Assembly (NCBI RefSeq): GCF_024448985.1
Contig: NZ_JAMOII010000001.1
Coordinates: 520,672 to 584,671 of the forward strand
Length of the DNA stretch: 64,000 nt
Origin: Stutzerimonas stutzeri
Lineage (GTDB): Bacteria; Pseudomonadota; Gammaproteobacteria; Pseudomonadales; Pseudomonadaceae
Reading direction: 5' to 3'
The notes under the pieces were generated by a model that saw only the letters and a program-made list of their open reading frames with translations, searched no databases and had not been told where the DNA came from. Made by a program: the position numbers and the translations under genes. Of the stretch, positions 10,073 through 61,852 are shown piece after piece; positions within the stretch are counted from its first letter, which is position 1; each line of letters begins with the position of its first letter.

Positions 10073-10073
10073 G

Positions 10074-12291: not shown

Positions 12292-12319
12292 CGTAGAGGC
12301 GCTCGAGAGGGCAGGGCTA

Positions 12320-17727: not shown

Positions 17728-17795
17728 AAACCCTTGAACGTTCGGTGCGGTTGGCTCTGATAAGCTCGACCGTCGATGCTCATGAGGGTTTGGAT

Positions 17796-42681: not shown

Positions 42682-42683
42682 AA

Positions 42684-43931: not shown

Positions 43932-46900
43932 TGATGGCAACCACTTTGCACGAACATCCGTTTAACGGCGAGCAACAACAGGGCAAAGTGGTTGCTTTGT
44001 CTATCGGAACCAAGCACTACAGTATCTATTTGCCTAACGCCGATATTGACTACATACAGAAAAAGATAAGCACCGAACTCCAGCCTTATGAGCTGGAAAT
44101 GCTCCAGGACATACAGGCAAACGTATCCGCAGGGGACTTGGTGCTGGACGTTGGCGCGAACATCGGTAATCACACTCTTTATCTCGCCGCGATAGCAGAA
44201 TGCAAAGTAGTCAGCTTTGAGCCCAATTCCTCGCTGATCGAGGCAATGCGTCGCAGCGTGGAAATCAATCAATTAAGTGAGCGCGTGACGCTGATGCCCT
44301 ATGGAGTAGGGCATACGGCAGGTAAAGGACACTTCGCCGCGCTAATGGAAGAGAACCTCGGCGGGCAGAGCATCGAAGTAGGCGAGGGCGATATTCGTAT
44401 CGTTGCGCTCGATGAGCTTGAACTACCTGGGCGCGTGAGGTTGATCAAGGTCGATGTGGAGGGCATGGAGCTGCCAGTGCTGGAAGGCGCTGTAGGATTG
44501 ATAGAAAAAGACCGGCCGCTTATCTATGTCGAGTGCATAAATGCGGACCACTACAAAACCATTTCCACTTGGATGGAAAGCCACGGTTACGTGTACTGGG
44601 ATACATTTAACGCCACTCCGACACATCTCTTCCGGCCAGCAGAGAGCGTTTCGCTCGACATGCGCCTCGCACGGCTTCAACACCATGACGTTCTAGCGAA
44701 CTACCAGAACGCACAGCTGCTGAAAACAACGCGTGACAACCTTGCCAACGCCAACCAGAAGTATCGTGAAGCCTGCCAGCGAATCGATGTATTGAAGGAG
44801 CAGCTTCACAGCAGTGACACGCGCCAACAAGAGCTAAAGGTGAAGTTGAGCGAGCGGCAGCAGGAACTTGAAGCGGCCCGGCAGGATGTCGAACAGATGC
44901 GCCAGCGCCTGCATCAGGCAGAGCGGGAATACACCGCAAGACTCGATGAACTCGCGTCGACAATGACAGACATCGCTGCCGAGAAGGCCCGAGGGCGGGC
45001 GCATGAACAGGAACTCGGGGCGCAACTCGCCGAGGCCAGACGGGCGCTGGAGTCCGAGCGCGCTCGTAGCAGCCTGCTGGAAAAAAATCTAGCCGAGCGT
45101 GAGCAACTGGCTACGCAGCAGGTCGCAGAGCTAGCCGTGCATCGCGAGCACAGTGCCGAGCTGCGCGCCGCTTATGACGCGCTCAGCGAAGAGCTGGAAC
45201 GATTCAAGGCTCAATATGACGAAGAGCTGCGCAACGGGCAGTCCATCCGGGAGCTCCTGGAGGCTACCCAGGAGCACGGACTGGAGAGCCGGCGCCAACT
45301 GGAAAATGTACAGGACGCCTGGAACAGCGAACGCAAGGTGTTCATCGAGCAGGTTTCGCTTCTCAATCAACGGGTGGATACCAAAGCCGGTTTATTGCAG
45401 CAGCGCGAGCATGGCGTAGCGTTGTTAGAAGCCGAGCTCGAGCAGGAAAGAGAGCAGCACGAGAAGCTGATTCAGGAGCACAGGAGCACAACAGTCCATA
45501 TCGAAACGATCGAGCAGCAGCTTGTCAACGAACAGACGGCCAAAAAAGCGCTGGAAAGCGTATTGGCCAGCACTGAAACACATGCGGCGCAGCTACAAGC
45601 AAGGCTCGATGAGTTTCAAGCGAACGACCGACAACATGAGCTGAAGGAACGAGTTTCCCTCTTGGAAGCAGAGTTAGACCGCTCCAGAGAGGATGCAAAA
45701 AGAGCATGTGGGGAACTCGTTGCGGCTCACGAGCAGCAGCTCACTGAAGAGCAGGTGGCCAAAAAAGCGCTGGAAAGCGTATTGGCCAGCACTGAAACAC
45801 ATGCGGCGCAGCTACAAGACAGACTCGACGAACTTCAGGCAAACAACAAACAAGAAGAATTGAACGCAAAGATCGCCTTGCTGGAACTGGAGCTGGACCG
45901 CGTCACGGGGGAGGGGAACAAATTGCGGGAAGAATTGATAGCAGGGCACAAACAAAGCGAAGAGCAACGCCGTAATGGCCACGAGGCGGAACTGGCGGAG
46001 CTGCGTCGAGCGCTGGAGCAGCAACAGGCTCAGATCAAGTCCCTGACGCAGGAGCTCAGCAAGGAAAGTGACAAGCGCCGAGTCGCCGAGCAGAGATTGA
46101 TCCAGGCGCGCGCCAGCATGACCTATCAGCTCGGCTATCAACTAAAGAACGCCAGATCGCTCGGCGGTTTAGTGCGCCTCCCAATTTCATTAGCTCGGTT
46201 GTATCGGCAGGCAAACAAGCAGCGCCAATCTCGCGCCCGCCAGCCTGCCACGATCGAAGCGCCGAAGGTTTTCGAGCATGCACCCGCCGATAGGCCAGTC
46301 GAACCAGAAGTGCTCGCCGATGCCAGGCAGTCCGCCGCTTTGCTGCCGCAGCGCATGGCGCAAGGTCAGCTCAAGATCGCCTGCATCATGGATGATTTCA
46401 CCTTCGGCTCCTATCAGCCCGAAGCGCAGCTACAACAGCTCACGCCGACAGCCTGGCAGGCAGAACTCGAAGATTTCCAGCCAGAGCTGCTGTTCATCGA
46501 GTCCGCCTGGCGTGGCAAGGATGAACTTTGGGGTAGCAAGGTAGGCCACAACGCCAGCGAATTGCAGCAGATCGTGCGCTGGTGCAAGACGCGCGGCACC
46601 CCCACGATGTTCTGGAACAAGGAAGACCCGGTTCATTTCGAAACCTTCCTGACCACGGCCAAGCAGTTCGACTTCGTGTTCACCACCGACATGGACTGCA
46701 TCCATCGTTACAAAGCCGCATTGGGGCATGACCGCGTCTATTTCCTGCCGTTCGCCTGCCAGCCCAGTGTCCACAACCCCATCGAACTCTACGAGCGCAA
46801 GGATGCCTTCTGCTTTGCCGGTGCTTACTATGCGCGTTATCCCGAGCGGACGCGGGATCTAGGCAACTTCGTCGCGAAGCTGCCCGAATTCCGCCCCGTG

Positions 46901-49537
46901 GAAATCTATGACCGCAACTACGGCAAGAACGACCCCAACTACCAATTCCCGGCTGAATATCAGCCATTCATTGTCGGCACGCTGCCCTTCTCGGAAATCG
47001 ATCGGGCCTACAAGGGCTATCGCTACGCGATCAACCTGAACTCCATCAAGCAATCGCAGACCATGTTCGCCCGCCGCGTGTATGAGCTGCTGGGCTGCAA
47101 TACCGTCACCGTCAGCAACTACTCACGTGGCGTACGCCTGATGTTTGGTGACCTGGTCATCACCACCGACAGCGGCGAAGAAATGGTGCGCCGACTGCAA
47201 GCGCTGGCGGGTGATGAAGAGAGTAGCGGCAAGCTGCGTCTGGCCGCCCTGCGCAAGGTCATGCTTGAGCACACCTATGAGCAGCGCCTGAACTACATCG
47301 TGGCCAAGGTGAGCGGTACATCAGTAGCCAATCCGCTGCCTGATGTAGCCGTCCTCGGCTACGCGCGTAGCGAGGAGCATCTGCAAGCCGTCCTTGCTAA
47401 CTTCCAACGGCAAACCCACACGAGCAGCATTCTCTACCTGGTCTTGGGGCGCAAGGTTCAGCAGCCCACCGGAAAAGACACGCGTGTTCATTTCCTTCGT
47501 CGCAAGGAGCTCGAAGGCAAGTGTATCGGCGACGTGATTGGCAATGCGGAGCTCCTGGCCGGCATGGTTGCCGATGATTACTACGGCCCCAACTACCTGC
47601 TGGATATGGCCATTGCCACGCGCTATAGCAGCGCGAATGCCTTTGGCAAGGTAACACGCTACAACTACGTAGAAACCGGTATCGAATTGCTGGAGCCAGG
47701 CCGCGCCTACCACAACGCTGGCTCACTGCAGCTGCGCAGTACCGTAGTGCGTGCCCAGCTTTTAGCCGCGTTCGACTGCTTCGATTGGTGCCGAGCTTTG
47801 TCGAGTAGCCGCTATGGCGAAGGCTCGTTACTGGCGGTCGACCCCTTCAATTATTGCCAGGGTGGTGCTGCGGCCGAAATGGATGCAGTTCATCAGCGCG
47901 TCGACGACCTTTCGCTGGACACCGGCTTCACCATCGAAGAGCTGCAGGCACGCGCGGAACGCATCGCTCCAGCCGAACAAGGTGCGATTGATGTACCGGA
48001 AATACGCCTCCAGCAACTGCAGGAAACCTTCGGGCCTTGCAAAAGCAGCAACGTCTCCTTTCAGATGGAGGAGCACGGCTGGCTGGTAACTTCCACGCTG
48101 GAGGATGGCAAGCATGAGTATATCTACGCCGCACGGGACCTGACGCCTGAGGAGCTGGGTGGCAAGGAGCAGCTGAAGTTCTTCCTCGATGTAACCCCCG
48201 GGTTGAATCTTCAATTGGTCATGCTTTTCCTCGATGCGCAGAAACAGCGTATCAGCCACGTGATCAAACATGCCAACCGCAACAAGGTGGTGGATGTACC
48301 GCCAGAAACTGCTTTCATCCGCATGGGCTGGCGCGTATACCAAGGCGGCTGCGCGGAAATCAAAGGCCTGCTGCTCGGCCACAAGGATCTGCAGCCCGCT
48401 GAAATGCTGGGCCAGGCAGAGCACTTGCTGATCACCAACCACTACCCCAGTTATGAGGATCTCTACCGCAACGGCTTCGTCCATAGCCGGGTGGCAGCCT
48501 ATCGCGAGCGTGGCGTGAATGTGGACGTGTTCAGGCTGCGTAAAGACGACGCAGCGACATATCATGAGTTTGAAAATATAGACGTGATTACGGGCTCCCA
48601 GTCCACGCTCAGGAAATTGTTGGACTCAGGTCGTTATCGAAACGTACTGGTGCATTTCCTTGATCCTGATATGTGGGAAGTCCTAAAAGACTACGTCGAT
48701 CGGCTCAATGTGATTGTTTGGGTGCATGGCGCGGAAATTCAGCCTTGGTGGCGCCGTCAGTTCAACTTCAAGACCGAAGAGCAGCTGCAAGTGGGCAAGT
48801 TGCAGAGCGAGCAGCGGCTGAGCTTCTGGTCAGGTCTGCTCAAGGAAATGCCGGCCAACCTCAAACTGATCTTCGTGTCGCACTTCTTTGCTGAGCAGGT
48901 GATGGAGGACCTTGGTTTCCGGCTTTCCGAAGAGGACTATCGAGTTATACATAATCCGATCGACACGGTCCTGTTCAACTATATTGAGAAGCCAGTTGAG
49001 CAGCGCAAGAAAATTCTGTCCATACGCCCCTACGCATCGGCAGTGTATGCAAATGATCTGAGCGTTAAGGCCATTGAATTGCTGTCAACGAAGCCTTGGT
49101 TCCATGAATTGGAATTTCGAATGATTGGCGAGGGCCCGCTGTTCGAGGAAACGCTGAAGCCACTGGAAAATTATCCCAATGTGAAGATCGAACGTAGATT
49201 CTTGCCGCGCAGCGAAATTGCCGTTCTGCACAAGGACTATGGTTTGTTCCTTTGCCCCAGCCGCATGGATACCCAGGGGGTTTCACGGGATGAGGCTATG
49301 GCATCGGGCTTGGTTCCAGTGACCAATGCCGTAGCGGCCATTCCGGAGTTCGCTGATGAAGGTTGTGCCATCCTAGCGCCCGAAGAAGATTATGCCGCGA
49401 TGGCGGAAGGTATTGCCCTGCTGGTGGAGAATCTCCAGTTGTTCAGCGCCATGTCGAAGGCCGCAGTCAAGCGGGTTGAGGAAAAAACGGCAGCGGATCT
49501 GATCGTCGAACAGGAACTCGAGCTTTTTTGGGATTGA
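43931..49537 (+). CDS. giant FkbM methyltransferase - coiled coil - multi-glycosyltransferase protein
   Basis: 1868 residues, no signal peptide or membrane helix. Order: FkbM-type methyltransferase (about 50-240; LVLDVGANIGNHTLYLA, IKVDVEGMELPVLEGA); coiled coil (about 257-730) containing a 73-residue internal repeat; an amphipathic YQLGYQLKNARSLGGLVRLP segment; a CgeB-like glycosyltransferase (about 815-1127); a GT2-like region with VADDYYGPNYLLD (about 1137-1343); a beta-rich domain (about 1354-1490); and a C-terminal GT4 glycosyltransferase (about 1497-1868; VSHFFAEQV, MIGEGPLFEETL, CPSRMDTQGVSRDEAMASG). It probably extends and caps a surface glycan at the membrane. Methyltransferase plus coiled coil recalls the chain-length ruler WbdD; that parallel is inference. 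Confidence 0.85.
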   Translation: MMATTLHEHPFNGEQQQGKVVALSIGTKHYSIYLPNADIDYIQKKISTELQPYELEMLQDIQANVSAGDLVLDVGANIGNHTLYLAAIAECKVVSFEPNSSLIEAMRRSVEINQLSERVTLMPYGVGHTAGKGHFAALMEENLGGQSIEVGEGDIRIVALDELELPGRVRLIKVDVEGMELPVLEGAVGLIEKDRPLIYVECINADHYKTISTWMESHGYVYWDTFNATPTHLFRPAESVSLDMRLARLQHHDVLANYQNAQLLKTTRDNLANANQKYREACQRIDVLKEQLHSSDTRQQELKVKLSERQQELEAARQDVEQMRQRLHQAEREYTARLDELASTMTDIAAEKARGRAHEQELGAQLAEARRALESERARSSLLEKNLAEREQLATQQVAELAVHREHSAELRAAYDALSEELERFKAQYDEELRNGQSIRELLEATQEHGLESRRQLENVQDAWNSERKVFIEQVSLLNQRVDTKAGLLQQREHGVALLEAELEQEREQHEKLIQEHRSTTVHIETIEQQLVNEQTAKKALESVLASTETHAAQLQARLDEFQANDRQHELKERVSLLEAELDRSREDAKRACGELVAAHEQQLTEEQVAKKALESVLASTETHAAQLQDRLDELQANNKQEELNAKIALLELELDRVTGEGNKLREELIAGHKQSEEQRRNGHEAELAELRRALEQQQAQIKSLTQELSKESDKRRVAEQRLIQARASMTYQLGYQLKNARSLGGLVRLPISLARLYRQANKQRQSRARQPATIEAPKVFEHAPADRPVEPEVLADARQSAALLPQRMAQGQLKIACIMDDFTFGSYQPEAQLQQLTPTAWQAELEDFQPELLFIESAWRGKDELWGSKVGHNASELQQIVRWCKTRGTPTMFWNKEDPVHFETFLTTAKQFDFVFTTDMDCIHRYKAALGHDRVYFLPFACQPSVHNPIELYERKDAFCFAGAYYARYPERTRDLGNFVAKLPEFRPVEIYDRNYGKNDPNYQFPAEYQPFIVGTLPFSEIDRAYKGYRYAINLNSIKQSQTMFARRVYELLGCNTVTVSNYSRGVRLMFGDLVITTDSGEEMVRRLQALAGDEESSGKLRLAALRKVMLEHTYEQRLNYIVAKVSGTSVANPLPDVAVLGYARSEEHLQAVLANFQRQTHTSSILYLVLGRKVQQPTGKDTRVHFLRRKELEGKCIGDVIGNAELLAGMVADDYYGPNYLLDMAIATRYSSANAFGKVTRYNYVETGIELLEPGRAYHNAGSLQLRSTVVRAQLLAAFDCFDWCRALSSSRYGEGSLLAVDPFNYCQGGAAAEMDAVHQRVDDLSLDTGFTIEELQARAERIAPAEQGAIDVPEIRLQQLQETFGPCKSSNVSFQMEEHGWLVTSTLEDGKHEYIYAARDLTPEELGGKEQLKFFLDVTPGLNLQLVMLFLDAQKQRISHVIKHANRNKVVDVPPETAFIRMGWRVYQGGCAEIKGLLLGHKDLQPAEMLGQAEHLLITNHYPSYEDLYRNGFVHSRVAAYRERGVNVDVFRLRKDDAATYHEFENIDVITGSQSTLRKLLDSGRYRNVLVHFLDPDMWEVLKDYVDRLNVIVWVHGAEIQPWWRRQFNFKTEEQLQVGKLQSEQRLSFWSGLLKEMPANLKLIFVSHFFAEQVMEDLGFRLSEEDYRVIHNPIDTVLFNYIEKPVEQRKKILSIRPYASAVYANDLSVKAIELLSTKPWFHELEFRMIGEGPLFEETLKPLENYPNVKIERRFLPRSEIAVLHKDYGLFLCPSRMDTQGVSRDEAMASGLVPVTNAVAAIPEFADEGCAILAPEEDYAAMAEGIALLVENLQLFSAMSKAAVKRVEEKTAADLIVEQELELFWD
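45538..45818. repeat. 62-base perfect direct repeat inside the coiled coil
   Basis: Bases 45538-45599 recur unchanged at 45757-45818, 219 bases (73 codons) apart and in frame. Each encodes AKKALESVLASTETHAAQLQ. Flanking sequence (EQQL...EQ.AKK) is also similar, so the unit is a 73-residue duplication. Confidence 0.97.
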
Positions 49538-49855: not shown

Positions 49856-52783
49856 ATGAGATTTGTGATTTTTGGTAGCAGCGCTAGTCGCGATGTGTTT
49901 GAACTTGTTGATAGAGGCGCTTGCGTTCTGGTCCGATATTTCGCAAGGAGCTCGCTTGGCAGTGCCTATGCCGAAGGCAAGGTTGTGGATGTGGATGTTT
50001 CCAAGATTACTTCGGCTTTTCAGCGTGGGCTTGTTTGTGCCGATTTAAATAAGGAGTTCAGGGGTTTCTTGGATTCTAGCGATTTCGACTGCCTGATCTA
50101 CGACCCGATCGACGAGCGGTTCGATCTTCTGTTGCTTAAGGGCGAGAAGGTTTGCACGCTCTCGAATGAGTTCAAGCAAGTCTATGAGGACAAGGGCGAG
50201 GTCGGTGGACGTCGCCTGAAATCGGGCTCGGAGGAGTTTTACGCATGCTGGGAAAATGGCTGGAGCGCCTTGATAGCGCAACTGGACAGCCTGGGCAAGC
50301 GTGCGGCACTACGTATCAACAAGGTGTTTTGGGCGGAAAGAACCGAGGCGGGCGATGATTTCCGGCCGGGCCACGATGCCGACGGGATCAAACGCGCCAA
50401 TGAATTTCTGGAGAAGATTTACTCGCGGATGTCGAGGGATCTCACGCCGGAACAGTTCTTCGAGTTTCCTCAGGGACTAATGGTCGGTGCCTGCGAGCAT
50501 AAATGGGGGAAAAGCCCATTCCACTATGTGGAGGCCTACTATCGCAAACTGGCCAACGTGCTGGAGGTTCTGGCTGATGGCGCTGAGGGTGTTGCCACTG
50601 GTAAGAACACGGCACATCGATCAAGCTTCGAGAGTTGTGTTGTCGAGCGCAAACTCGAGAAGTCTTCAGTATTCGGTGTGCGGAGTGGTCGATTCATTGA
50701 TGCTGCGGGCGAGGAAACCAGCAATATAAAGGTGGCCGGGAAGGGCAAGACAAGATTATGTGATGACCATGTGCTCTCCGAGTTTTCGGGGAGGGCGGGC
50801 AGTTTCGAGTTGCGCCTTTTGCTAGATGAGCCTGTCGTTTACGGCAACGGCATTTCCGTCTGTTACCGGATCAGTGGCTGGCAGGAGATCAAGTATCTGG
50901 CCATAGGCTATACGGTTGGAAGTGTCTTTCGTCATGTGAAGTTGCCCAACTCCCGGCAGGACACTTGGGAAGACTTGAGTTTTTCGATTGACGATCTGAT
51001 CTATGGCTTCCAGAACAAGTGGATATTGCCCGAGCCCAGCCAGCAGATTCAGGATATCCGCCTCTATGTGAAGGGCACTCCCGGCGAGGCCGGTGCGCAA
51101 ATTGGTTGCAAGTGGGGGGCTGCATGGCAAGAGTTGCCCTACTCGGTAGAGGATTTCCCATTTCCCCGGCAGCGGGGAGAAAATAGTGCACCTTCGCCCA
51201 AGCACGATGTGGTCGATGCCATTGTTCGCTATATAAAAGACTGCAATGTAAGTCTTGAGAAGCATGCGCGGGAATTCCTGGACTACGGTCGCCTTCCCTT
51301 GAATGGCGATAAGTACCTTTCTTGGGGTATTGAACAACCACTCCCGGATGCCCTGGAAGAGTCCGGCACCTATCGCTACCTGTGGCATTCGATGCACCCG
51401 GCGCGGACGCTGATTGTATATGGCAAGGAAAACTCTGATCTGAGGGCAATATTCGCGGCACGCGATTACATGTCTGCTTGGCTCGACAGGAGCTATTTCA
51501 GTCCCGATGCTGATATCAAGTTCACCTGGTACGATCACGGAACTGCTGAGCGCCTGCTGGCTTTTCTGCTCATGCATGAGGTGGGGCGTGAGTATTCGTT
51601 CGACTTCCGCTTCATGTCACGGCTCCGAAGTGCGATCTTGAAGCATGGCAATCTGCTGGAATCAGAGGCATTTTATGCCGCTCACCAGCCTACGCGCTAT
51701 CACAACCATGCCTGGTTCCAGGATATGGCGCTGATTGCCGCAGGGCAGATCATGGTGGATTATCCGTGTGCCGATCGCTGGTTGACTAAAGGCGTAGCCA
51801 GACTGACCGATCAGCTAGAGAACCTGCTGGTTCGCGATCAGGGGTATGCAATTTTCGTCGAAAACTCCATCGGCTATCACCATGGTATCCAGCACCTGGC
51901 GAAGTTTGCCGGGAATTTGACCAGTGCTTCTGGGCGGGATTCGCTGATTCCCCAGGTCGCCCAAGAATTGAGCAGGTGGTCGGATTTTCTGCGCTATCCG
52001 GATAACAGGAGTCCTACGCATGGAGACACCTTCCGTCTGCCGAATGCAACTGAGGAGCCTGTGCGGAGAGGGCAGCCGTATAGTGATCCGCTCTGTCTTG
52101 TCTTGGATAAGGCCGGATATGCTGTGGTGAAAGGCAATCAAGAACACTTGCCGTTCATGCTATGCATGTTTGCGACGTCAATCTGCAAGACGCATAAGCA
52201 TGAAGATAACCTGTCGATTACTTTGTTCTTTGATGGCGTTGAGTGGCTGATTGATCCTAGCTTCTTTTCGCATGAGTATTCTAATAGCGAGCCGGCTTTC
52301 CTTAAAAGTGCAGCCGCGCACAATGCGATATGTATAGATGGAGTCGAGTATGATATTTCGCCAGGATTGGCTTTTGTGTCTGGCGCGTGTGCTGAAGGTT
52401 GTTACTCGATAGAAGGTAGGCATTGTTCATACAAAGAAACGGAGATAAGTCGGTCTGTCAATGGGCGATTGGACGCTCTCGATATTTCGGTAATAGATAA
52501 AGTGACTTCGCTAAAAAAGCGGACGGCTAAGTTGGTCTTTAGCCTAGGTGAGGGGGTCTTCGCTACGGCACAAGGAAGCTCTATCTGTCTGAGGCATCAG
52601 GCATCAAATTACGAGTTGGAGATAGAGATTTTGAGCGCTGGTATTCGATCAGAGATCGTGCCAAGTATCGCTGGAGGCGGATTCATGCAGTTTTCGGAAG
52701 TTCAGCGAATTTGCCTCGATGTTCCATCGGAGACAGGTGAGATCGTTTGGAAGCTTCGAGCGGTAGATGTCGCGGATATTTAA
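49856..52783 (+). CDS. DUF6270 - heparinase II/III fusion protein
   Basis: 975 residues without signal peptide. The N-terminal domain (about 1-235) resembles DUF6270, an SGNH-like fold (MRFVIFGSSASRDVFELV, YFARSSLGSAY). A beta-rich, carbohydrate-binding-like stretch follows (about 250-440), then a polysaccharide-lyase toroid (about 450-740; YHNHAWFQDMALIAAG near 617 and IGYHHGIQHL near 675) and a C-terminal beta-sandwich with the heparinase II/III metal motif HKHEDNLSI (His780, His782, Asp784) and AHNAICIDG. It may trim or modify an acidic glycan inside the cell. Codon use is AT-shifted, suggesting transfer. Lyase activity is inferred. Confidence 0.8.
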   Translation: MRFVIFGSSASRDVFELVDRGACVLVRYFARSSLGSAYAEGKVVDVDVSKITSAFQRGLVCADLNKEFRGFLDSSDFDCLIYDPIDERFDLLLLKGEKVCTLSNEFKQVYEDKGEVGGRRLKSGSEEFYACWENGWSALIAQLDSLGKRAALRINKVFWAERTEAGDDFRPGHDADGIKRANEFLEKIYSRMSRDLTPEQFFEFPQGLMVGACEHKWGKSPFHYVEAYYRKLANVLEVLADGAEGVATGKNTAHRSSFESCVVERKLEKSSVFGVRSGRFIDAAGEETSNIKVAGKGKTRLCDDHVLSEFSGRAGSFELRLLLDEPVVYGNGISVCYRISGWQEIKYLAIGYTVGSVFRHVKLPNSRQDTWEDLSFSIDDLIYGFQNKWILPEPSQQIQDIRLYVKGTPGEAGAQIGCKWGAAWQELPYSVEDFPFPRQRGENSAPSPKHDVVDAIVRYIKDCNVSLEKHAREFLDYGRLPLNGDKYLSWGIEQPLPDALEESGTYRYLWHSMHPARTLIVYGKENSDLRAIFAARDYMSAWLDRSYFSPDADIKFTWYDHGTAERLLAFLLMHEVGREYSFDFRFMSRLRSAILKHGNLLESEAFYAAHQPTRYHNHAWFQDMALIAAGQIMVDYPCADRWLTKGVARLTDQLENLLVRDQGYAIFVENSIGYHHGIQHLAKFAGNLTSASGRDSLIPQVAQELSRWSDFLRYPDNRSPTHGDTFRLPNATEEPVRRGQPYSDPLCLVLDKAGYAVVKGNQEHLPFMLCMFATSICKTHKHEDNLSITLFFDGVEWLIDPSFFSHEYSNSEPAFLKSAAAHNAICIDGVEYDISPGLAFVSGACAEGCYSIEGRHCSYKETEISRSVNGRLDALDISVIDKVTSLKKRTAKLVFSLGEGVFATAQGSSICLRHQASNYELEIEILSAGIRSEIVPSIAGGGFMQFSEVQRICLDVPSETGEIVWKLRAVDVADI

Positions 52784-52922
52784 TCTTCTTAGTCAGTTTC
52801 AGAGCAGCATTGTCTCGTGGAGTAGTCCAGTTTGGCTGGCTTTACAAATGGTTAGGTTGCTTCGCTCCGTGCAGAAGTTTGGAAAAGGAGCAGAGTTTAA
52901 TTTTCTAAAAAGGAGAGAGTCG

Positions 52923-53360
52923 TTGAAAAGAGTATTAGGGTTATGTGCGGCGGCCTTATTAGTTGGCTGTGATACGGGTGCGGGCCAGAGCACTGCGCCT
53001 AAATCACTGCCGGTGGCAGCGAACTACTTTTCGAAGAATGCCATTTATTTTCCTGACGGCGCGGGCCTCCAGTTTAGCGGCAAGTTACGGAGCTATGTGC
53101 TGGTAGAAGATGAGAAGGGTAAGTTTGATCGTTATGTCTTTGAGTTTCCCGAGGATGTAATGACAGTTGAGGGTGCGGTTTTTGCAACACTCGCTAAAAG
53201 CGGTTATCAGCGCAAAGTACGCCGTGAAGATGCGAAGAGCTTCGTTGTCGACTATATAAAAGGGGGCTCTGCGCCAGTTACTATGATCTATGAGCGAGTA
53301 CCGGCCAGCAATGACATGGAGGCTTTTTCTCGACTAAGAGTAAGCTGGAAGAATATCTGA
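52923..53360 (+). CDS. small lipoprotein of the heparinase cluster
   Basis: 145 residues; not recognised. The start is a TTG at 52923 with AGGAG 7 bases before it, giving a clean signal MKRVLGLCAAALLVGC with the lipobox LVGC (Cys16). An in-frame ATG at 52767 would place a long tail before the signal and overlap the previous gene. The mature part is about 130 residues and beta-rich (LRSYVLVEDEKGKFDRYVFE). A terminator follows. Probably a periplasm-facing partner of the neighbouring membrane protein or anchored heparinase; that is inference. Confidence 0.7.
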   Translation: MKRVLGLCAAALLVGCDTGAGQSTAPKSLPVAANYFSKNAIYFPDGAGLQFSGKLRSYVLVEDEKGKFDRYVFEFPEDVMTVEGAVFATLAKSGYQRKVRREDAKSFVVDYIKGGSAPVTMIYERVPASNDMEAFSRLRVSWKNI

Positions 53361-53408: not shown

Positions 53409-55154
53409 ATGAAAGTTCTGTCTGCGCTGCGCTGGTTTGCTTCTGTCGGGTTTAAGGTGTTTCGTGTCGTGCCTTGGGCTACCAGTCTGGGCGTGGTGTG
53501 CACGCTGGCGTCACAGGTTGCCTCTTTACTGGCGGCACTATTGCCGTTAAAAGTGATCATTCTGCTCGGCTCTGAGCGCATCCCCTCATATTTTCCCGAA
53601 CTCCTGCAGGCATATGGCAAGACGGTGCTTATTGTAGGGCTTGGTGGGGCGGCCTTAGTTTTTTTTGCTGTTCATCTTTTGGCTGAATGGTTTATTGCCA
53701 GATTAGCGTCCTTTGGTGCGCGTGAGCTTATTTCAAATAGTCGTAAGCTAGCCTTGTTCGAAAATCAGGAATTATTGCTTACCAAGGCGTATCAGCGATT
53801 CGCAGAGGCTTTAGCCGGTGGTGTATTTCTTGGGTTTGCTGGCTTGGCGCTTGCCTGGATATATCCGCTGCAGGCAATATTCGCCGGTAGTTATACCATA
53901 GTGGTATGGCTAGTATTGGTAATTACTCAGCGCTTGGGCAAAGTTTGGCGGGAACAGCAGGTTGGTGAGTTCATCCGTTTGGTCGGTGTGCTGGCCAATA
54001 TCGGTTTTTTTTTGATCTTTTCTGCCATCGTTTTCGATGTGCTAATGGGTACCAATGTCTCGGTTTTTTGGGCCATCGTCACACTGTTGTTGGTAAGGCA
54101 ATTGTTTCGCCGTCTGACTTCGCTCGTAGGAGACATCGCCAATTTGTATTCGCAACGACTGCAACTAAATGCGCTGTTATTTCATGGGCATCTATATGCG
54201 GGTAATGTGGTATCGGAAGATTCGAGCGGACTATGGACTCTCGCGGATCCCGAATCCTACACCGGCTGGTTAGTGCCCCTGGTTGAGCGTATCTCGGGGC
54301 CGGTGACGGTACCACTAGAGGTGCGTTGGGTGCAGTCTGGAATACCCGATATACTAATGGGGATAATACATATCGGGCCGGAGCCGAAGCAGTGTTATTT
54401 GGTCAAGTTGTACGGCGAGAATCGTAATTCGCTGGCACGACACGAAGCGAGCCTGTTTGGTAACGTTGGCGAAGTTTCCGCGCCTTTGCCCCGTATACGT
54501 TTGGTTGAGCAGGTCGCGAGCTTCAATTGCCATTTTTTTGATTGGTCTACGGTCGATAAGGTTACTCTACGTGAAGCAAAAAATGCGGCGATGAAAGTGA
54601 CAGCGGGTTTGTTTAACAGTCGACCTTCAGCTTCTCTCGTCGATATGTATGCTCGTTCACGTCCGATGCTATGGCAGAGACTCGACGATAAGCCTCTGGA
54701 GCGACTTCTTCTTTTTGCGTGCGAAACCGAAACTTTCTCGCTACAGCGTTTTGTCGACCAATTAAACTCGATAAAGTCAAGGCTTGAGGCGATGCCATTG
54801 GCGATCGTTGCCCCGGATCTCCCACAGGATGCTCTATGGATTGATAGGCATGGAGTCGTCTCGGCTTCGCAATGGGTATTCTGGACGCTTGAGCCAGTGG
54901 GGGCTGGTTGGCCTACCAACGAGCAGGCTCTGCCATTATTGCCGGCGGCTTTTGAAAAGGCGCAGGGCCTGCGTACCGATCTAAACACAATAACCGTCAA
55001 ACACGCTGAGTTGGCGGCGCTGATGTTCGCTTTCGACAAGGCTTGTCAGCGCCAGGCATATCGGACTGCGATTGAGCTTGTTGAGCCAATACTGAGTGCC
55101 TACGACGACTTAGATGGTCAAGCTCCCAAAGGAAGACGAGGTGACAGTGCGTAG
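53409..55154 (+). CDS. ABC-exporter-like membrane domain fused to a degenerate kinase-like domain
   Basis: 581 residues. The N-terminal half (about 1-270) has about six membrane helices (18-52, 69-97, 133-175 as two, 193-235 as two) arranged like the membrane domain of an ABC exporter, but no nucleotide-binding domain follows. Instead residues about 290-530 resemble a phosphotransferase/kinase fold: YLVKLYGENRN (beta-3 Lys), ARHEASLF (helix C Glu), and APDLPQDALWIDRHG in the place of the catalytic HxDxxxxN loop, with the His and Asn lost and the metal-binding Asp replaced (ASQW). So it is probably a pseudokinase. Export or regulation of the glycan is inferred from position. Confidence 0.65.
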   Translation: MKVLSALRWFASVGFKVFRVVPWATSLGVVCTLASQVASLLAALLPLKVIILLGSERIPSYFPELLQAYGKTVLIVGLGGAALVFFAVHLLAEWFIARLASFGARELISNSRKLALFENQELLLTKAYQRFAEALAGGVFLGFAGLALAWIYPLQAIFAGSYTIVVWLVLVITQRLGKVWREQQVGEFIRLVGVLANIGFFLIFSAIVFDVLMGTNVSVFWAIVTLLLVRQLFRRLTSLVGDIANLYSQRLQLNALLFHGHLYAGNVVSEDSSGLWTLADPESYTGWLVPLVERISGPVTVPLEVRWVQSGIPDILMGIIHIGPEPKQCYLVKLYGENRNSLARHEASLFGNVGEVSAPLPRIRLVEQVASFNCHFFDWSTVDKVTLREAKNAAMKVTAGLFNSRPSASLVDMYARSRPMLWQRLDDKPLERLLLFACETETFSLQRFVDQLNSIKSRLEAMPLAIVAPDLPQDALWIDRHGVVSASQWVFWTLEPVGAGWPTNEQALPLLPAAFEKAQGLRTDLNTITVKHAELAALMFAFDKACQRQAYRTAIELVEPILSAYDDLDGQAPKGRRGDSA

Positions 55155-56988
55155 GTCCGTATTGGCTGCTTGTGGCCTGTTTGTTGTCGTAATGGTAATG
55201 GCAGGCGCAATCTATTTGAACGGGACCGGTGCCACCCCAACTCCATGTGAGTGGATCGATAGTGGGCGTTCGGCTCAATCCTGTGCTACTTCCGATGTGT
55301 GGGATGGGATGGCGAAGCAAGCCGAGCGGGCCCCATCCGTTACCGCTCGAAACGCCAATATCGCAGTTACGCGCGGCGCGGTAACCCAGGCTCGCCAATT
55401 GTGGGAAACAGGTTTCGTCCCGGCGGGGCGTGATGTGGCCCCTTGGCCGTTCCAGCTCCCACTGGATTGGAACGCCGATCCGTTCAAGGATCGCAACTGG
55501 CGCTATCAACTGCACGCTTGGCGCATGCTAGACCCTCTTCTCGGAGCCTGGGAGCAGAGTGGCAATACCAACTATTTGGACGATACGTTGCGCATCGTAT
55601 TCGATTGGTACGAATACCATGCAGTTCGCGGGCAGAAAAGCGACTACCAGTGGTATGACATGGCGGTCGGCCTACGGGCGATGAAACTGGCCTACCTTGT
55701 TCAACGTGCATTCGAAGGTGATGTGCAGCTCGATGATGCGGGGAAGGAGAAGCTTATTCACTTGGCGTGGTTACACGCTCAGAGCCTGATGGACAAACGC
55801 TTGCTTTCCAAGGGTAATCATGGACTGTTCCAGCTGCACGGGCTGATGGCGCTATGCAGTGTTGTACCTTCTATCGAAACCTGTGCTGGTGCACGGGATT
55901 TCGTAGGGGTGGAAATGCAGGATTTGCTGTTACGGCAATTCAGTTCCGAGGGTGTGCATCTAGAAAACGCACCTGAGTACCACTTCTTCGTTTACAACAC
56001 CGTCAAGCGCTTTATGGATACCGGCTGGTACGAGCAGTTCGGCTTCATCCGCGAACTCATGGAGCGAGTTGAGCAGAATAGGGTATGGATGGTGCACCCT
56101 GATAAAACGATCGTGACGGTGGGCGATTCGGAGCCAAAGCCAGTGAATATCGACTGGCCTGAATCGTCCGACAGTTGTCGAGACGTGAAAGCCTCCTGCT
56201 ATTTACTCCGGAATTTCGAGGAGTCCGGGTATGCAATCGTTCGCAGCGATTGGGCGGTGCCGGCGCAGAAGGCCTCCATGCTGTTTTTCATGGGGATGTT
56301 TTTCCAGACGGGGCATAAGTTGCCTGATGATCTCAGCTTCGAGTGGTTTGATCAGGGCGAGCGGATATTGACTAATGCGGGTAAATATTCATATAGCAAG
56401 GGTCCGTTTCGCGACTACGTCACCTCGACTGCTGCCCATAACACGGTCGAGGTCGATGGCAGGACACCGAAGCTGTCAGAGGCTACGCGTTACGGCTCGG
56501 CGATCAAGGACGCCAGGGCCATGGGCGAGACTTTTCTGATTCGTGGTGCAGTACCACGAGAGGAGGGCATAGAGCAGGAGCGCCTGGTGTTGTTTACGCC
56601 TCAACGCTGGCTTGCGATTGTTGACGTTTTGCAAGGGGATACATTGCATGAGTACACGCAGTGGTTTCATTTCGCGCGGCAATGGCGGCTCGAAAATACT
56701 GAAGGTGACATGCGGTTGGTGAGTTCGTCGGGGCGTACGGTTCTGGTTCGGCCCCTTTCAGGCGCGCAACTCGTTGCTCCACGAGGCCAGAAGCAGCCGA
56801 AGCTTCAAGGCTGGGTAACGGAAGGCTACGGGACTATGGTTGACCGTCAGGCGCTCGGCTTCACTGCCGGTGGGCGCTCGGTTCGCCTTGTCACGCTTTT
56901 CGGCTTTGATGAAGCGGCCCTTGATGAGGCAAGCGCTGCGGCGGCTCTTCATGTGCCAGCAACTCAGCCCTCTTCGGATGTGAATTAA
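55141..56988 (+). CDS. membrane-anchored heparinase II/III family protein
   Basis: 615 residues from the GTG at 55141, with AAGGAAG just before it; an ATG at 55114 is possible. N-terminal signal anchor (about 5-27), so the enzyme faces the periplasm. Toroid domain with KGNHGLFQLHGLMAL and ENAPEYHFFVYN, which hold the Asn/His and Tyr positions used by heparinase II/III-type lyases, then the beta-sandwich with AHNTVEVDG. The metal motif reads HKLPDDLSFEW, so the second His of the usual HKHxD is missing. It overlaps the preceding gene by 14 bases. Probably cleaves or edits the uronic-acid glycan during export. Confidence 0.8.
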   Translation: MTVRRSVLAACGLFVVVMVMAGAIYLNGTGATPTPCEWIDSGRSAQSCATSDVWDGMAKQAERAPSVTARNANIAVTRGAVTQARQLWETGFVPAGRDVAPWPFQLPLDWNADPFKDRNWRYQLHAWRMLDPLLGAWEQSGNTNYLDDTLRIVFDWYEYHAVRGQKSDYQWYDMAVGLRAMKLAYLVQRAFEGDVQLDDAGKEKLIHLAWLHAQSLMDKRLLSKGNHGLFQLHGLMALCSVVPSIETCAGARDFVGVEMQDLLLRQFSSEGVHLENAPEYHFFVYNTVKRFMDTGWYEQFGFIRELMERVEQNRVWMVHPDKTIVTVGDSEPKPVNIDWPESSDSCRDVKASCYLLRNFEESGYAIVRSDWAVPAQKASMLFFMGMFFQTGHKLPDDLSFEWFDQGERILTNAGKYSYSKGPFRDYVTSTAAHNTVEVDGRTPKLSEATRYGSAIKDARAMGETFLIRGAVPREEGIEQERLVLFTPQRWLAIVDVLQGDTLHEYTQWFHFARQWRLENTEGDMRLVSSSGRTVLVRPLSGAQLVAPRGQKQPKLQGWVTEGYGTMVDRQALGFTAGGRSVRLVTLFGFDEAALDEASAAAALHVPATQPSSDVN

Positions 56989-57083
56989 GGCTGGTCTGTG
57001 AACGATGCGAGGAGCTTGCCGCGGCACTTCCTCTATCATTTGAACCCTTTCGGCATTTTCTAGTCTCTGATTGGTTCATTTCA

Positions 57084-57110
57084 GGAAGGGCCTTTATCGG
57101 CCACTTTTAT
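57084..57110 (+). terminator. weak hairpin before the GT4 gene
   Basis: AAGGGCC and GGCCACTT (one bulged A) around TTTATC, then CTTTTATT. The ribosome site of the next gene follows immediately, so this may act as an attenuator rather than a terminator. Confidence 0.3.
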
Positions 57111-57121
57111 TGGGAGGTAAT

Positions 57122-58375
57122 GTGGCTCAAGTGGCCATGGTCGTCTGGAACGAGTTCCGCAATGATGCGCGAGTTCTGAAGGAAGCAGAGACACTATCTA
57201 CGGCGGGCCATCAGGTCACCGTTCATGCCTTGCACACACCTGGAGTTACGCAGGAGCGTGAAGTACTTTCGAGTGGGGTGTGTGTCGTACGAGTTGCTCG
57301 CAGTCCGCTATGGAAATGGCGCAAAGGAAACGGTCATGTGGACCCAGCGGTGGCTCCGGTAGTCAAGACGGCGGCGCCCGGGGCAAGCGGCCCGATTGGG
57401 CGGTTGAGTCCTTTCAAACAGGTGCTTCGCATATGTGCAAGATTGTGGACCCATGCGGGCTTGCTCTGGCACTTGACACGCTGCCGCGCCGATGTCGTGC
57501 ATGCACATGACGTGAATACGCTTCCAACCGCTTGGCTGGCTGCGGTGTTTTCCGGCGCGAAGCTTGTGTATGACGCCCATGAAATCAGCACCAGCCGCGA
57601 AGGCTACTCTAGCTTCCGCAGGCTGGTTGCGGTGGTCGAGAAGGCGCTCATGCCGCGCGCGAATGGCACCATTACTACCACGGTGGCGCGCGCCAAGTTT
57701 TTCGCCCGGGCTTATGGGATCGAACGTCCGGTAGTGCTGCAGAATCGACCGCGACATCAGCAGTTTTTTTTAGCCTCCAACCGTATTCGCAAAGAGTTGG
57801 GGCTTGTTCGACCTTGGCCGATTATCCTTTACCAGGGCGGGGTGCAGCAGGGGAGGGGGTTGGAGCGGTTGGCGCGTGTGGCCGCTGACGTATCCGACGC
57901 TTACTTCGTCTTCATCGGCGGTGGGCGGCTCGATACCAGCCTGCGTTGTATCGTCGTTAAGTTGCAGCTGGAAGAACGAGTGCGCTTCATTCCTACGGTC
58001 GCTCTGGCCGAGCTGCCGAGCTATACCGCATCGGCTGATATCGGCGTGCAGCCGATCGAGAACACTTGCCTGAATCACTACACCACCGATTCGAACAAGC
58101 TTTTTGAGTATGTGCAGGCCGGGTTGCCGGTGGTTGCTTCGGATCTGCCCGAGATCCGCCGGGTGGTCAGGGAGCATGATCTTGGTCTGCTCGTTCCGCC
58201 CGGCGATAGTGCCGCGTTGAGCGCGGCATTGCGCGAGCTGGTTGCCAATAAGAGCAAGCGCCAGTATTACGCCGCTCAGTCACGCAAGGCTTCGGCGATC
58301 CTTAGCTGGGAGAGCCAGGAGCACGAATTGCTCGCATTGTACGAGAGGGTGTTGTCCAATCCCGTTCCGGCTTGA
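57122..58375 (+). CDS. GT4-family glycosyltransferase
   Basis: 417 residues. I chose the GTG at 57122, which follows GGGAGG by four bases and starts MAQVAMVVWNEFRNDARVLKEA; a TTG at 57071 would add 17 residues. GT-B fold: N-terminal domain with DVVHAHDVNTLPTAWLAA and KLVYDAHEISTSREGY, C-terminal domain with ILYQGGVQQGRG, VFIGGG, IGVQPIENTCLNHYTTDSNKLFEY (conserved Glu position near the donor sugar). It adds one sugar of the repeat; donor not known. It follows the heparinase gene by 133 bases. Confidence 0.85.
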   Translation: MAQVAMVVWNEFRNDARVLKEAETLSTAGHQVTVHALHTPGVTQEREVLSSGVCVVRVARSPLWKWRKGNGHVDPAVAPVVKTAAPGASGPIGRLSPFKQVLRICARLWTHAGLLWHLTRCRADVVHAHDVNTLPTAWLAAVFSGAKLVYDAHEISTSREGYSSFRRLVAVVEKALMPRANGTITTTVARAKFFARAYGIERPVVLQNRPRHQQFFLASNRIRKELGLVRPWPIILYQGGVQQGRGLERLARVAADVSDAYFVFIGGGRLDTSLRCIVVKLQLEERVRFIPTVALAELPSYTASADIGVQPIENTCLNHYTTDSNKLFEYVQAGLPVVASDLPEIRRVVREHDLGLLVPPGDSAALSAALRELVANKSKRQYYAAQSRKASAILSWESQEHELLALYERVLSNPVPA

Positions 58376-58388
58376 CCAGCACTGTGTA

Positions 58389-59579
58389 ATGCCTAAACGA
58401 ATTCTGCTGCTGACATTTTTTTATCCCCCCGATCTTTCGGCGGGTTCTTTCCGCGCGCGGGCGCTGGTCCAGGCGCTGCGTGCACATGCTGGCGGGGCAG
58501 TACACGTCGATGTGCTTACCACACAGCCCAATCGCTATCACGAACATGCCAGCGAAACACAGGTTATCGAGAGCGGGGGCGACGTGCGGGTTCGGCGCAT
58601 TCGGTTGCCCGCGCATCGCAGCGGTTTTCGGGATCAGGCGGTGGCTTTCGTGGCTTTTGCCTATCAGGCAATGCGCCATGCCAGCGATGGACGTTATGAC
58701 CTGGTTGTCGCTACCTCCTCGCGGTTGATGACAGCTGTACTTGGCGCCTGGATCGCTTATCGCCAGGGCGCCCGGTTGTATCTGGATATCCGCGATATCT
58801 TTGTCGAAAACCTCGGTGAGCTTTTCTCTTCTCCTGTTTCCAAGATATTGATGATGGGGTTTGGCGCCTTGGAGCGCTGGGTCATTCGGCGTGCTGATAA
58901 AGTGAATCTGGTGACGGCGGGCTTTCTTGGGTATTTCCAACCGAAGTATCCGGAACGGCGCTTTTCGCAGTATACGAATGGTGTGGACGAAGATTTCGTT
59001 GACTTTCCGTTGTGTGGCTGCGGCGACACCGGTGCTGAACGGCCGCTGCAGATTCTGTATGCCGGCAACGTAGGGGATGGGCAGGGTTTGCACCGGATCG
59101 TTCCTGAGCTAGCGCAGTGCCTGGGTGGCGAAGTGCATTTTCGTATTGTGGGTGGCGGTAGTCGCTTACAGCTATTGCGAGAGGCTATAGCGGCTGGGGG
59201 GCTGGAGAATGTCGAACTGGTGGAGCCGGTGGCCCGAGAGCAGTTACTGAGCCTCTATCATCAGGCGGACGTGCTGTTTCTGCATTTGAATGACTTCAGG
59301 GCGTTTCGCCGCGTGTTGCCATCAAAGGTGTTCGAATACGCAGCCACTGGCAAGCCCGTATGGGCCGGTGCGGCGGGTTACGCCGCCGAATTTATTCATA
59401 CTGAAATTTCCAATACTGCAGTATTCGCTCCCTGTGATAGTGCTGGGGCGATAGAGGCGTTGCGACGGCTGAAGCGGGAGCAGACGCCCCGCCCGGAGTT
59501 TGTCGCACGCTATGCGCGTAGTCGGATCATGCGCTTGATGGCTGCGGATGTACTTGAACTCGTCGAGGATGCCAACTGA
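58389..59579 (+). CDS. GT4-family glycosyltransferase, WbuB-like
   Basis: 396 residues from the ATG at 58389 (MPKRILLLTFFYPPDLSAGS), 13 bases after the previous stop. The opening YPPDLSAGSFRARAL and the layout resemble WbuB-type transferases that act on N-acetyl sugars of O-antigen. C-terminal donor domain: ILYAGNVGDGQGLHRIV, FRIVGGGSRLQLL, LPSKVFEYAATGKPVW. The stop overlaps the next ATG (TGATG), so translation is coupled to the epimerase/reductase gene. Confidence 0.88.
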   Translation: MPKRILLLTFFYPPDLSAGSFRARALVQALRAHAGGAVHVDVLTTQPNRYHEHASETQVIESGGDVRVRRIRLPAHRSGFRDQAVAFVAFAYQAMRHASDGRYDLVVATSSRLMTAVLGAWIAYRQGARLYLDIRDIFVENLGELFSSPVSKILMMGFGALERWVIRRADKVNLVTAGFLGYFQPKYPERRFSQYTNGVDEDFVDFPLCGCGDTGAERPLQILYAGNVGDGQGLHRIVPELAQCLGGEVHFRIVGGGSRLQLLREAIAAGGLENVELVEPVAREQLLSLYHQADVLFLHLNDFRAFRRVLPSKVFEYAATGKPVWAGAAGYAAEFIHTEISNTAVFAPCDSAGAIEALRRLKREQTPRPEFVARYARSRIMRLMAADVLELVEDAN

Positions 59580-60820: not shown

Positions 60821-61852
60821 ATGAGTGCCGTGTTCTGGTTGTTACCGCTGGTTTTCGGCGCTTCGTTTTTCTTGACCTGGGCGCTGCTACGTTACGCGTT
60901 GCGCCGTGATCTTATCGATATACCCAATGCCCGTAGCTCGCACGTTATACCCACCCCTCGGGGGGGAGGGGTCGCGATCGTTATCAGTCTGCTCGTCGTT
61001 TTGCCGATTATCGCCTCGATGGGGCTGATCTCATGGGGGGTAATGCTGGCTCTATGGGGCGCCGGCTGCGGTGTGGCGATACAGGGGTTTCTTGATGACC
61101 ACGGTCATATCCCCGCGCGTTGGCGCCTGCTCGGGCATTTCCTGGCGGCAGTCTGGGCTCTATTCTGGCTCGGTGGTCTCCCCCCGCTGGAATTGTTCGG
61201 GCTAACGCTGGAGCTTGGTTGGTGGGGGCAAGCGTTCGCAGTGATCTGGCTCGTCTGGCAACTAAACCTTTACAACTTCATGGATGGAATAGATGGCATT
61301 GCGAGCGTTGAGGCATTGGCCGTCTGCCTTGGTGCCGCAGCGATTTATGCCTTGGTGGGCTTTCCGGACGATACACTTGTGCCTGTTTTACTGGCTACAG
61401 CGGTAGCGGGATTTCTCTTCTGGAATTTTCCACCTGCGCGGATATTCATGGGGGACGCGGGAAGCGGCTTTCTCGGCATCGTTATCGGCGTACTTTCAAT
61501 CCAGGCCGCCTGGTTGGCGCCGCAACTTTTATGGTGCTGGTTGATCCTACTTGCGGTTTTTATCGTGGATGCGACCTGGACGCTGCTGCGTCGCCTGTTG
61601 CATGGTGACAAGGTGTACGAGGCTCATCGTAGCCACGCTTATCAGGTTGCTTCACGTCGCTTTGGAGCGCACTTACCGGTGACGTTGGGTGTTCTGGCTA
61701 TAAACATTATGTGGCTGCTGCCCATCGCGCTGATGGTCGGGCTGGAGCGCTTGGAAGGGGCATTGGGTCTGTTGATCGCCTATGCTCCGTTGGTATGGAT
61801 TGTCGCAAGGCTGAAGGCCGGGTACTCCGATGAGGGTCATACTCGGCTCTAG
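60821..61852 (+). CDS. wbpL: initiating sugar-phosphate transferase WbpL (undecaprenyl-P type)
   Basis: WecA-like polyprenyl-phosphate HexNAc-1-P transferase that starts O-antigen (and common antigen) units on undecaprenyl phosphate. 343 residues, about 10-11 membrane helices. Motifs: RSSHVIPTPRGGG near the N-terminus, GFLDDHGHIPARWR (the DDxxD-type metal site), NLYNFMDGIDGIA, FMGDAGSGFLG, and the carbohydrate loop EAHRSHAYQVASRR. It is followed by wbpM after 77 bases. Confidence 0.93.
   Translation: MSAVFWLLPLVFGASFFLTWALLRYALRRDLIDIPNARSSHVIPTPRGGGVAIVISLLVVLPIIASMGLISWGVMLALWGAGCGVAIQGFLDDHGHIPARWRLLGHFLAAVWALFWLGGLPPLELFGLTLELGWWGQAFAVIWLVWQLNLYNFMDGIDGIASVEALAVCLGAAAIYALVGFPDDTLVPVLLATAVAGFLFWNFPPARIFMGDAGSGFLGIVIGVLSIQAAWLAPQLLWCWLILLAVFIVDATWTLLRRLLHGDKVYEAHRSHAYQVASRRFGAHLPVTLGVLAINIMWLLPIALMVGLERLEGALGLLIAYAPLVWIVARLKAGYSDEGHTRL

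Follow-up and report, generated by a model that had tools for sequence, protein, structure and literature searches.

We describe here a gene of Stutzerimonas stutzeri that lies in a stretch of 64,000 nucleotides (RefSeq assembly GCF_024448985.1, contig NZ_JAMOII010000001.1, positions 520,672 to 584,671 of the forward strand), referred to below as the window. Its product joins a membrane domain of about six helices, with cytoplasmic ends, to an APH-fold domain that keeps the Lys and Glu of the nucleotide site and has lost most of the catalytic loop; at the level of sequence, this make-up is well supported. An earlier sequence-only reading had described the open reading frame (ORF) 53409-55154, and its coordinates, frame and ATG start proved exact. 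The gene and its parts are as follows.

53409..55154, + strand: complete gene with ATG start, encoding a six-helix membrane domain and a cytoplasmic APH-like pseudokinase, 581 amino acids (aa)
53409..54209, + strand: membrane half, residues 1-267, about six helices, N-in/C-in, with an ABC-exporter-like profile (hydropathy, loop charges, profiles)
within 53409..54209, + strand: motif LPLKVxxLLGSxxxPxYFP, after helix 1 of the membrane half
54210..55151, + strand: kinase-like half, residues 268-581 (profiles), with a helical C-terminal tail (read by eye)
54405..54407, + strand: K333, at the position of the kinase beta-3 Lys; Lys in 38 of the 43 members that have a kinase half (alignment)
54441..54446, + strand: H345-E346, with E346 in place of the helix-C Glu; Glu in 43/43 (alignment)
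54810..54833, + strand: degenerate catalytic loop A468-P469-D470...A475, with the HxD His and the Asn lost and the Asp kept here (alignment)
54870..54884, + strand: Q488-W489..W492 at the DFG position, with the Asp lost here; W489 and W492 are each found in 42 members (alignment)

Searches with single proteins were uninformative. The window protein has no Pfam match, and its best NCBIfam match (E 0.14) is not significant. Searches of the PDB with the whole protein and with both halves returned nothing or chance matches at E 0.86-0.91, and the kinase half of a Thioalkalivibrio member (locus L055) gave TOM20 as its top match (E 0.019), which we judged to be chance. Single-protein scans of genome and viral contig collections, and tblastn against plasmids, revealed no relative. 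In the host genome, the ORF is the sole match of its family. Homologues were nonetheless detected in 7 of 97 relatives (host genome counted), and in 10 of 390 order-level, 12 of 369 class-level and 4 of 398 phylum-level genomes; these genome sets overlap, and all four phylum matches come from the same order. A pattern scan of genome contigs then yielded 26 named loci, in Halomonas, Billgrantia, Vreelandella, Salinicola, Chromohalobacter, Marinobacter, Microbulbifer, Stutzerimonas, Pseudomonas, Thioalkalivibrio and one metagenome-assembled genome of the Balneolaceae. The family is conserved and mostly full-length: 43 of the 45 aligned members have both halves. Since full-length homologues across many genera share it, the architecture is more than chance.

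The kinase-like half of 43 members was compared, as a profile, with 25 APH sequences from other genomes. Throughout, L labels denote loci and G labels the genomes or genome stretches used in comparison; L073, L093, L106, L108, L115, L116 and L117 were excluded from the ABC and APH sets for wrong-strand, missing or over-long frames. The score was 48.0 (E 6.1e-6, probability 85), against at most 16.7 for reversed profiles and profiles of other families and a maximum of 29.0 for block-permuted profiles, of which 0/60 reached 48.0. A profile of 27 members gave 45.3 with APH and 12.5 when reversed. With Pfam APH on the 27 single sequences, one matched at E 3.3e-4 (20.9 bits, under the 23.2 cut-off) and a second at E 0.059, also under the cut-off. 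The likeness to APH-type kinases (PF01636) extends across the N-lobe and the catalytic region: K333 and E346 fall near the nucleotide-site pair, APDLPQDALW falls on the HGD...N loop, and the family Trp at the DFG site aligns with the APH 'DW'. These results support a kinship of this half with APH-type kinases, and uphold the proposal of the sequence-only reading that a kinase-like fold takes the place of the ATPase.

The family differs from APH-type kinases by its fusion to a membrane domain and by the lack of the catalytic loop and of the DFG Asp. Among the 43 members, the HxD Asp is found in 22, the Asn in 8 and the DFG Asp in 5; no member holds all three (0/43), and six hold two of them. 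Other residues stand in place of the DFG Asp in 38/43 (His in 19, Asn in 13) and of the HxD Asp in 21/43. The window protein itself has lost the His, the Asn and the DFG Asp and keeps the HxD Asp (D470). It had been claimed that the Lys and Glu of the nucleotide site are kept and that the catalytic His/Asn loop is lost, and both points are borne out. Judged from these residues, the kinase-like half is a pseudokinase.

A kinship with WaaP/Kdo kinases (PF06293), which share the kinase fold and the setting in lipopolysaccharide loci, was also considered. Genes of this type occur in 6 of the 33 neighbourhood entries (one of them examined with Pfam), but the pseudokinase profile scored only 15.6 with six such sequences, which is noise, and this kinship was rejected. 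Separately, locus L055 carries a second kinase-like gene about 5 kb downstream (17023-18081) that matches the APH profile (E 6.4e-5).

Hydropathy places six helices in residues ~17-235 of the membrane half at the stricter cut-off; a looser one adds a seventh, directly before helix 1. Over 45 members the loop charges alternate (+3.2, -1.1, +3.1, -0.2, +0.7, -0.8, +2.0), a pattern that fits six helices with the N- and C-terminus both cytoplasmic. In this predicted topology, and in having a soluble domain after helix 6, the family resembles type IV ABC exporters (PF00664 + PF00005; PglK/WlaB-type in glycan loci), which are also the top profile match of the membrane half among the families tried. 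Indeed, the 45-member profile scored 34.8 (local) and 24.2 (global) with 28 ABC-exporter membrane domains; the ABC-2, Wzx/MATE, Wzy_C, WbaP and reversed controls stayed at or below 20.6 (local) and, with SbmA-type proteins added, at or below 8.8 (global). The global alignment runs co-linearly through helices 1-6 but for a gap of ~50 residues between helices 4 and 5. For comparison, scores among undoubted ABC relatives are 93-133, while SbmA/BacA, which are structurally proven relatives, score 18.4 with the same ABC set. Run against 656 pooled proteins, the membrane-half hidden Markov model (HMM) returned ABC exporters as seven of its eight best matches outside the family, the top ones at E 2.6e-5 and 4.4e-4. 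None of 60 permutations in 20-column blocks reached 34.8 (maximum 26.6).

Other tests were less favourable. None of 27 single members matched ABC_membrane at E up to 10, and the reciprocal search of the family with the ABC HMM gave noise (best E 0.19). The 27-member profile scored 27.9 for the membrane half (21.7-22.6 when reversed) and 33.5 for the whole protein, reversed profiles giving 21.7-25.4 overall; half-samples of the family scored 24-34. One of 60 permutations in 40-column blocks (40.3) exceeded the observed score, and a PglK-like pair scored only 18.6 with the family. The second coupling loop of type IV exporters is missing, the remaining loop between helices 4 and 5 averaging 16 residues. 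The helix pattern of a type IV ABC exporter, which had been proposed from the letters alone, is thus recovered in the six helices and in a profile score above all non-ABC and reversed controls, and is not recovered in single-sequence matches or in coupling loop 2. Altogether, the evidence suggests a relationship of the membrane half with ABC-exporter membrane domains, likely from profiles but unproven. The absence of an ATPase domain was read correctly: no member among 45 has a GxxGxGK[ST] (Walker A) or LSGGQ-like motif, a looser P-loop pattern occurs in two, and Pfam ABC_tran has no match on the window protein.

We also compared the family with transporters and flippases of other kinds. According to PMC13316013, SbmA is a proton-driven ABC-type membrane domain without ATPase. 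SbmA/BacA proteins (SLiPT) are thus similar to our family in this respect (PMC13316013), but they import peptides, and the proteins used here (E. coli, 406 aa) have no kinase-like domain. Membership in this group was rejected, as the family scored 11.1 with three SbmA/BacA proteins and 19.6 with four ABC-type relatives added, which is noise level. Membership among Wzx-type flippases found no support either: there was no Pfam match, and the score with 25 Polysacc_synt_3 proteins was 15.4. Wzx/MurJ flippases (PF01943, PF13440, PF03023) have 12-14 helices, and the family has about six and no sequence similarity to them; it would occupy the same step if it were a translocase. The earlier statement that no transporter of this make-up is described holds for the pairing with a pseudokinase, since our literature searches returned no ABC-membrane/pseudokinase combination, and does not hold for the ATPase-less ABC-type membrane domain, which is known from SbmA (PMC13316013).

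In one genome of the host's genus (G018, locus L013), the two halves are separate genes. The membrane half is a gene of its own (9550-10353, 267 aa), and the order over 8165-12394 is a pyruvyltransferase-like ORF, the membrane half, an a/b-hydrolase-like ORF, an APH kinase and the glycosyltransferase that usually follows the family gene (GT4a, see below), the first and third being named by eye. The separate kinase (11384-12394, 336 aa) carries NHNDCKPANV and TDWD, matches Pfam APH above the cut-off (E 6.5e-7) and is the top non-family match of the family's kinase HMM (E 0.0091); from these motifs, it looks intact. A second stand-alone membrane half was found in genome G585 (locus L034). In the membrane-half tree, the G585 half falls inside a supported group of fused proteins (96/92), the position of the G018 half is less certain (94/80), and both are long branches placed apart, so that fusion or separation of the halves probably took place on more than one occasion.

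Two further placements in this tree are worth recording. The copy of S. stutzeri RM2 (L052) pairs with that of Billgrantia montanilacus (L056; 100/99) and not with the other Stutzerimonas copies, which suggests transfer between families. The Balneolaceae member (L059), on a 3.3-kb contig, is the only non-proteobacterial one and groups with the Thioalkalivibrio copies (100/97); its presence there may reflect a binning error or a transfer.

In the window, the gene belongs to a glycan cluster, whose other members with coordinates are listed below. A further epimerase gene and a Polysacc_synt_2 dehydratase gene stand on either side of the sugar-phosphate transferase gene.

41551..49537, + strand: UDP-GlcNAc 2-epimerase, UDP-sugar dehydrogenase and an 1868-aa FkbM-methyltransferase/glycosyltransferase protein, in this order and in the same cluster
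49856..52783, + strand: DUF6270 domain fused to heparinase II/III-like domains (Pfam)
52767..53360, + strand: 197-aa ORF without Pfam match, containing internally LKRVLGLCAAALLVGC (lipobox by eye)
55114..56988, + strand: heparinase II/III-like protein; its ORF shares 41 bases with the end of the pseudokinase gene
57071..58375, + strand: GT4 glycosyltransferase (GT4a), the most constant neighbour of the family; here the heparinase gene intervenes
58242..59579, + strand: GT4 glycosyltransferase (GT4b), the next most constant neighbour; its listed start, a TTG, falls inside GT4a, and translation probably begins further in
60821..61852, + strand: polyprenyl-phosphate sugar-phosphate transferase family, PF00953 (Pfam)

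Because of the PF00953 transferase, glycan assembly probably begins on undecaprenyl phosphate. The 197-aa ORF, which has a distant match in L061 (35% over 155 aa), probably starts later, at a TTG near 52923, and would then encode a short lipoprotein (LLVGC lipobox, by eye). The pseudokinase gene does lie between two heparinase-fold proteins, as had been remarked, with this unmentioned ORF also intervening. Literature searches on DUF6270 and on Stutzerimonas O-antigen/wzx returned no paper.

Across the family we examined 33 neighbourhood entries: the 26 named loci, six genome stretches and the window. Two entries are duplicates (L009 = L050, L010 = L052), so counts are quoted on the 26 named loci where possible; L049, L050, L052 and L063 reappear as G421, G033, G043 and G667, and contig ends shorten L051, L054 and L059. 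Where no Pfam match is given, the names WbaP, WbpM, PglK, MsbA and CysQ are provisional labels. GT4a is present in 21/26 loci, in 19 of them at most 120 bp downstream, and its copies are 56-72% identical to that of the window, against 31-39% for the pseudokinase family itself. Three of the five loci without it (L051, L054 and L063) show an adjoining GT2-like ORF, by eye. A Wzy_C-cluster gene lies within 10 kb in 13/26 (Pfam run on two representatives). It is thus well supported that the family is conserved at full length and usually fixed beside glycosyltransferases in surface-glycan loci. The heparinase-fold gene, to which the sequence-only reading had drawn attention, is found within 10 kb in only 7/26: the association is real in a minority of loci, as a local feature, and was rejected as the defining context. 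In S. stutzeri RM2 (L010, 3614-5592), the dehydratase gene that closes the cluster appears as two ORFs (342 + 309 aa) and may be broken.

One branch of the family has another setting. In the L022/L023 locus, the neighbours are a giant adhesin-like protein, type I secretion HlyD and ABC genes, a MurF-like ligase and a LuxR-type regulator, and in L221 (1-19900) and L222 (1-14000) divergent members stand between a giant adhesin-like protein and type I secretion genes. Next to these members lie an unusual protein of 1063 aa, whose C-terminus is that of a MurF-like ligase (Mur_ligase_M, E 1e-37), and an ORF of 357 aa that contains an HExxH motif and matches nothing in Pfam.

A side observation concerns sulfation. 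Genes for sulfotransferases, 3'-phosphoadenosine 5'-phosphosulfate (PAPS) synthesis or sulfate permeases occur within 10 kb in 8/26 named loci, in 7/16 genome stretches of 13-84 kb and in 0/16 Wzx loci of 15-16 kb, counts in which three genomes appear in both of the first two lists, the seeds were drawn from the test loci and the stretch lengths differ. Sulfotransferase or PAPS-synthesis genes near the family gene lie in L048 (5608-6291), L049 (7831-8535), L061 (12226-12744) and the stretches of G421, G1157, G448 and G180. In a Pfam tally of 104 ORFs from 15 test loci and 105 ORFs from 15 Wzx loci (one antisense ORF of the 105 chosen test ORFs and, of 16 control loci, L220 left out), heparinase (6), APS kinase (3) and Sulfotransfer_2 (3) were among the 25 most frequent of 75 families near the test genes and not among the 25 most frequent of 122 near Wzx, where the lowest count shown was 3. 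Part of the family may thus belong to sulfated glycans. Since the seeds are biased, the stretch lengths are unequal and the window has no such gene in this search, sulfation was not retained as a common theme.

The sequence-only reading had also stated that the locus lacks a flippase, and for the window this is supported. The host contig extends ~9 kb past the gene; on it, the nearest Polysacc_synt match is ~126 kb off, and there is no ABC exporter, Wzy_C or ABC-2 match (PF03023 was not searched genome-wide). The only other polytopic genes of the cluster are the sugar-phosphate transferase and the Polysacc_synt_2 dehydratase. In 23/26 named loci, no flippase was recognised within 10 kb (by hydropathy, ATPase motifs and Pfam on unclear ORFs; three loci are cut by contig ends). 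The remaining ones are L039, with an ABC exporter (PglK-like by eye) beside a Wzy_C gene, L047, with a MurJ-family gene, and L057, with a Polysacc_synt match under the cut-off; the ABC exporter of L045 was read as type I secretion. In wider stretches, G667 has an ABC exporter 15 kb off, G585 an ABC ATPase at the stretch edge, 9 kb off, and G018, G180, G358, G448, G1157 and G1159 have Polysacc_synt matches 14-45 kb from the family gene. In the single-contig genome G498, the family gene has a WbaP-like ORF (by eye) and a Wzy_C gene beside it; genome-wide, neither Polysacc_synt nor Polysacc_synt_3 has a match, and ABC-2 has one, at a distance (MurJ-family genes not searched). This genome has two ABC exporters, of which the one ~20 kb from the family gene is presumably MsbA.

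What does the protein do? We tentatively favour, as the best of several readings though not one to be held firmly, an inner-membrane glycan-assembly factor, that is, a membrane platform or scaffold, or a regulator, around the neighbouring glycosyltransferase. In this scheme, the membrane protein would once have worked with a separate active kinase, as may still be the case in one genome of the same genus, and the evidence is suggestive of a membrane domain derived from an ABC exporter after the loss of its ATPase and second coupling loop. The protein would not hydrolyse ATP; the pseudokinase would bind a nucleotide, a nucleotide-sugar or the neighbouring GT4 enzyme, and the platform would thereby hold or switch this enzyme, and possibly the flipping step too, at the lipid-linked glycan. 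An accessory fits better than the transporter itself because a recognised flippase accompanies some members of the family and not others. Several observations weigh against such a role. Conservation is higher in the membrane half than in the kinase half (mean column identity 59% versus 41% over 27 members, with 22 of ~267 membrane-half positions invariant), which points to more than an anchor and to an independent function, for instance transport. The stand-alone halves of L013 and L034 show that the membrane part also occurs unfused to a kinase. Finally, the divergent branch sits in an adhesin-like/type I secretion locus, where Pfam, run on six flanking ORFs of L221, recognised no glycosyltransferase; this setting speaks for a role broader than one flipping step. 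The protein could instead be the translocase itself, a reading that we consider rather unlikely but the main rival: an ABC-exporter-type domain without ATPase would flip the undecaprenyl-linked glycan, driven by an ion gradient or by the downstream ligase and gated by the pseudokinase. The protein would then stand in for the missing Wzx, like PglK in its substrate and like SbmA, the proton-driven precedent (PMC13316013), in its energy source. The profile scores with ABC exporters, the paucity of other polytopic genes in the window cluster, the many loci with a Wzy_C-cluster gene and no recognised flippase, and the G498 locus all speak for it. In Cobetia, all O-antigen regions but one are reported to be without Wzx, and a translocating protein not yet known was proposed (PMC11766843). 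On the other side, flippase or exporter-type ABC genes are found in L039, L047, L057, G667 and G585, six other stretches have a more distant Polysacc_synt match, G498 has one of its two ABC exporters ~20 kb away, some loci lie close to contig ends, the genome-wide searches did not cover MurJ-family genes, and one branch sits in the adhesin-like secretion locus. We thus rejected the idea that the protein is always the flippase, as at least five family loci also hold a flippase or an exporter-type ABC gene; for the same reason, a role as the exporter is possible, not established. The sequence-only reading had offered a glycan exporter or its regulator, and given these co-occurrences and the type I secretion/adhesin-like branch, a regulatory or assembly role fits better than a sole exporter.

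The ABC likeness could also be a chance resemblance between helical membrane profiles, the first half then being an unrelated six-helix anchor or another kind of transporter. The failure of single-sequence and reciprocal searches, the closeness of the 27-member score to the reversed profiles, the one 40-column permutation above the observed score and the noise-level scores with the PglK-like pair and the SbmA sets (11.1-19.6) would agree with this. We find it improbable in view of the lower scores of all other membrane families and reversed profiles, the 20-column permutations and the predominance of ABC exporters among the best HMM matches; moreover, the method misses true relatives, since SbmA, a proven structural one, scores only 18.4. 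The kinase half may also not be inert: it could act as an unorthodox phosphotransferase or nucleotidyltransferase on the glycan, the lipid carrier or a partner protein. The nearly invariant nucleotide-site Lys and Glu, the six members with two of three catalytic residues and the split relative with its APH-type kinase, intact by sequence, are consistent with such an activity. Yet no member has Asp, Asn and DFG-Asp together, and the frequent replacement of the DFG Asp and the HxD Asp is unlike a conserved active site, so that we regard an active enzyme as hardly probable. Our preference remains with the glycan-assembly factor.

Clusters without a recognisable Wzx, Wzm/Wzt or PglK leave the membrane crossing of the lipid-linked sugar unexplained, a question that has been published for Cobetia (PMC11766843). 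The family provides a concrete and deletable candidate, as translocator or as regulator, for such Wzx-less glycan clusters. In a more specific and doubtful version, it would represent a new kind of glycan flippase, in which an ABC-exporter-type domain shed its ATPase as SbmA did, gained a pseudokinase gate and translocates the undecaprenyl-linked O-unit in Halomonadaceae, Stutzerimonas and relatives. If this were true, host clusters that often have an initiating transferase and a Wzy_C-family protein, with no Wzx shown, would be accounted for, and the family would be a candidate for the translocating protein postulated for Cobetia in PMC11766843. The family would also document an unusual course of protein evolution, in which an ABC-type membrane domain swapped its ATPase for a kinase fold, beside a split relative whose kinase still looks active from its sequence.

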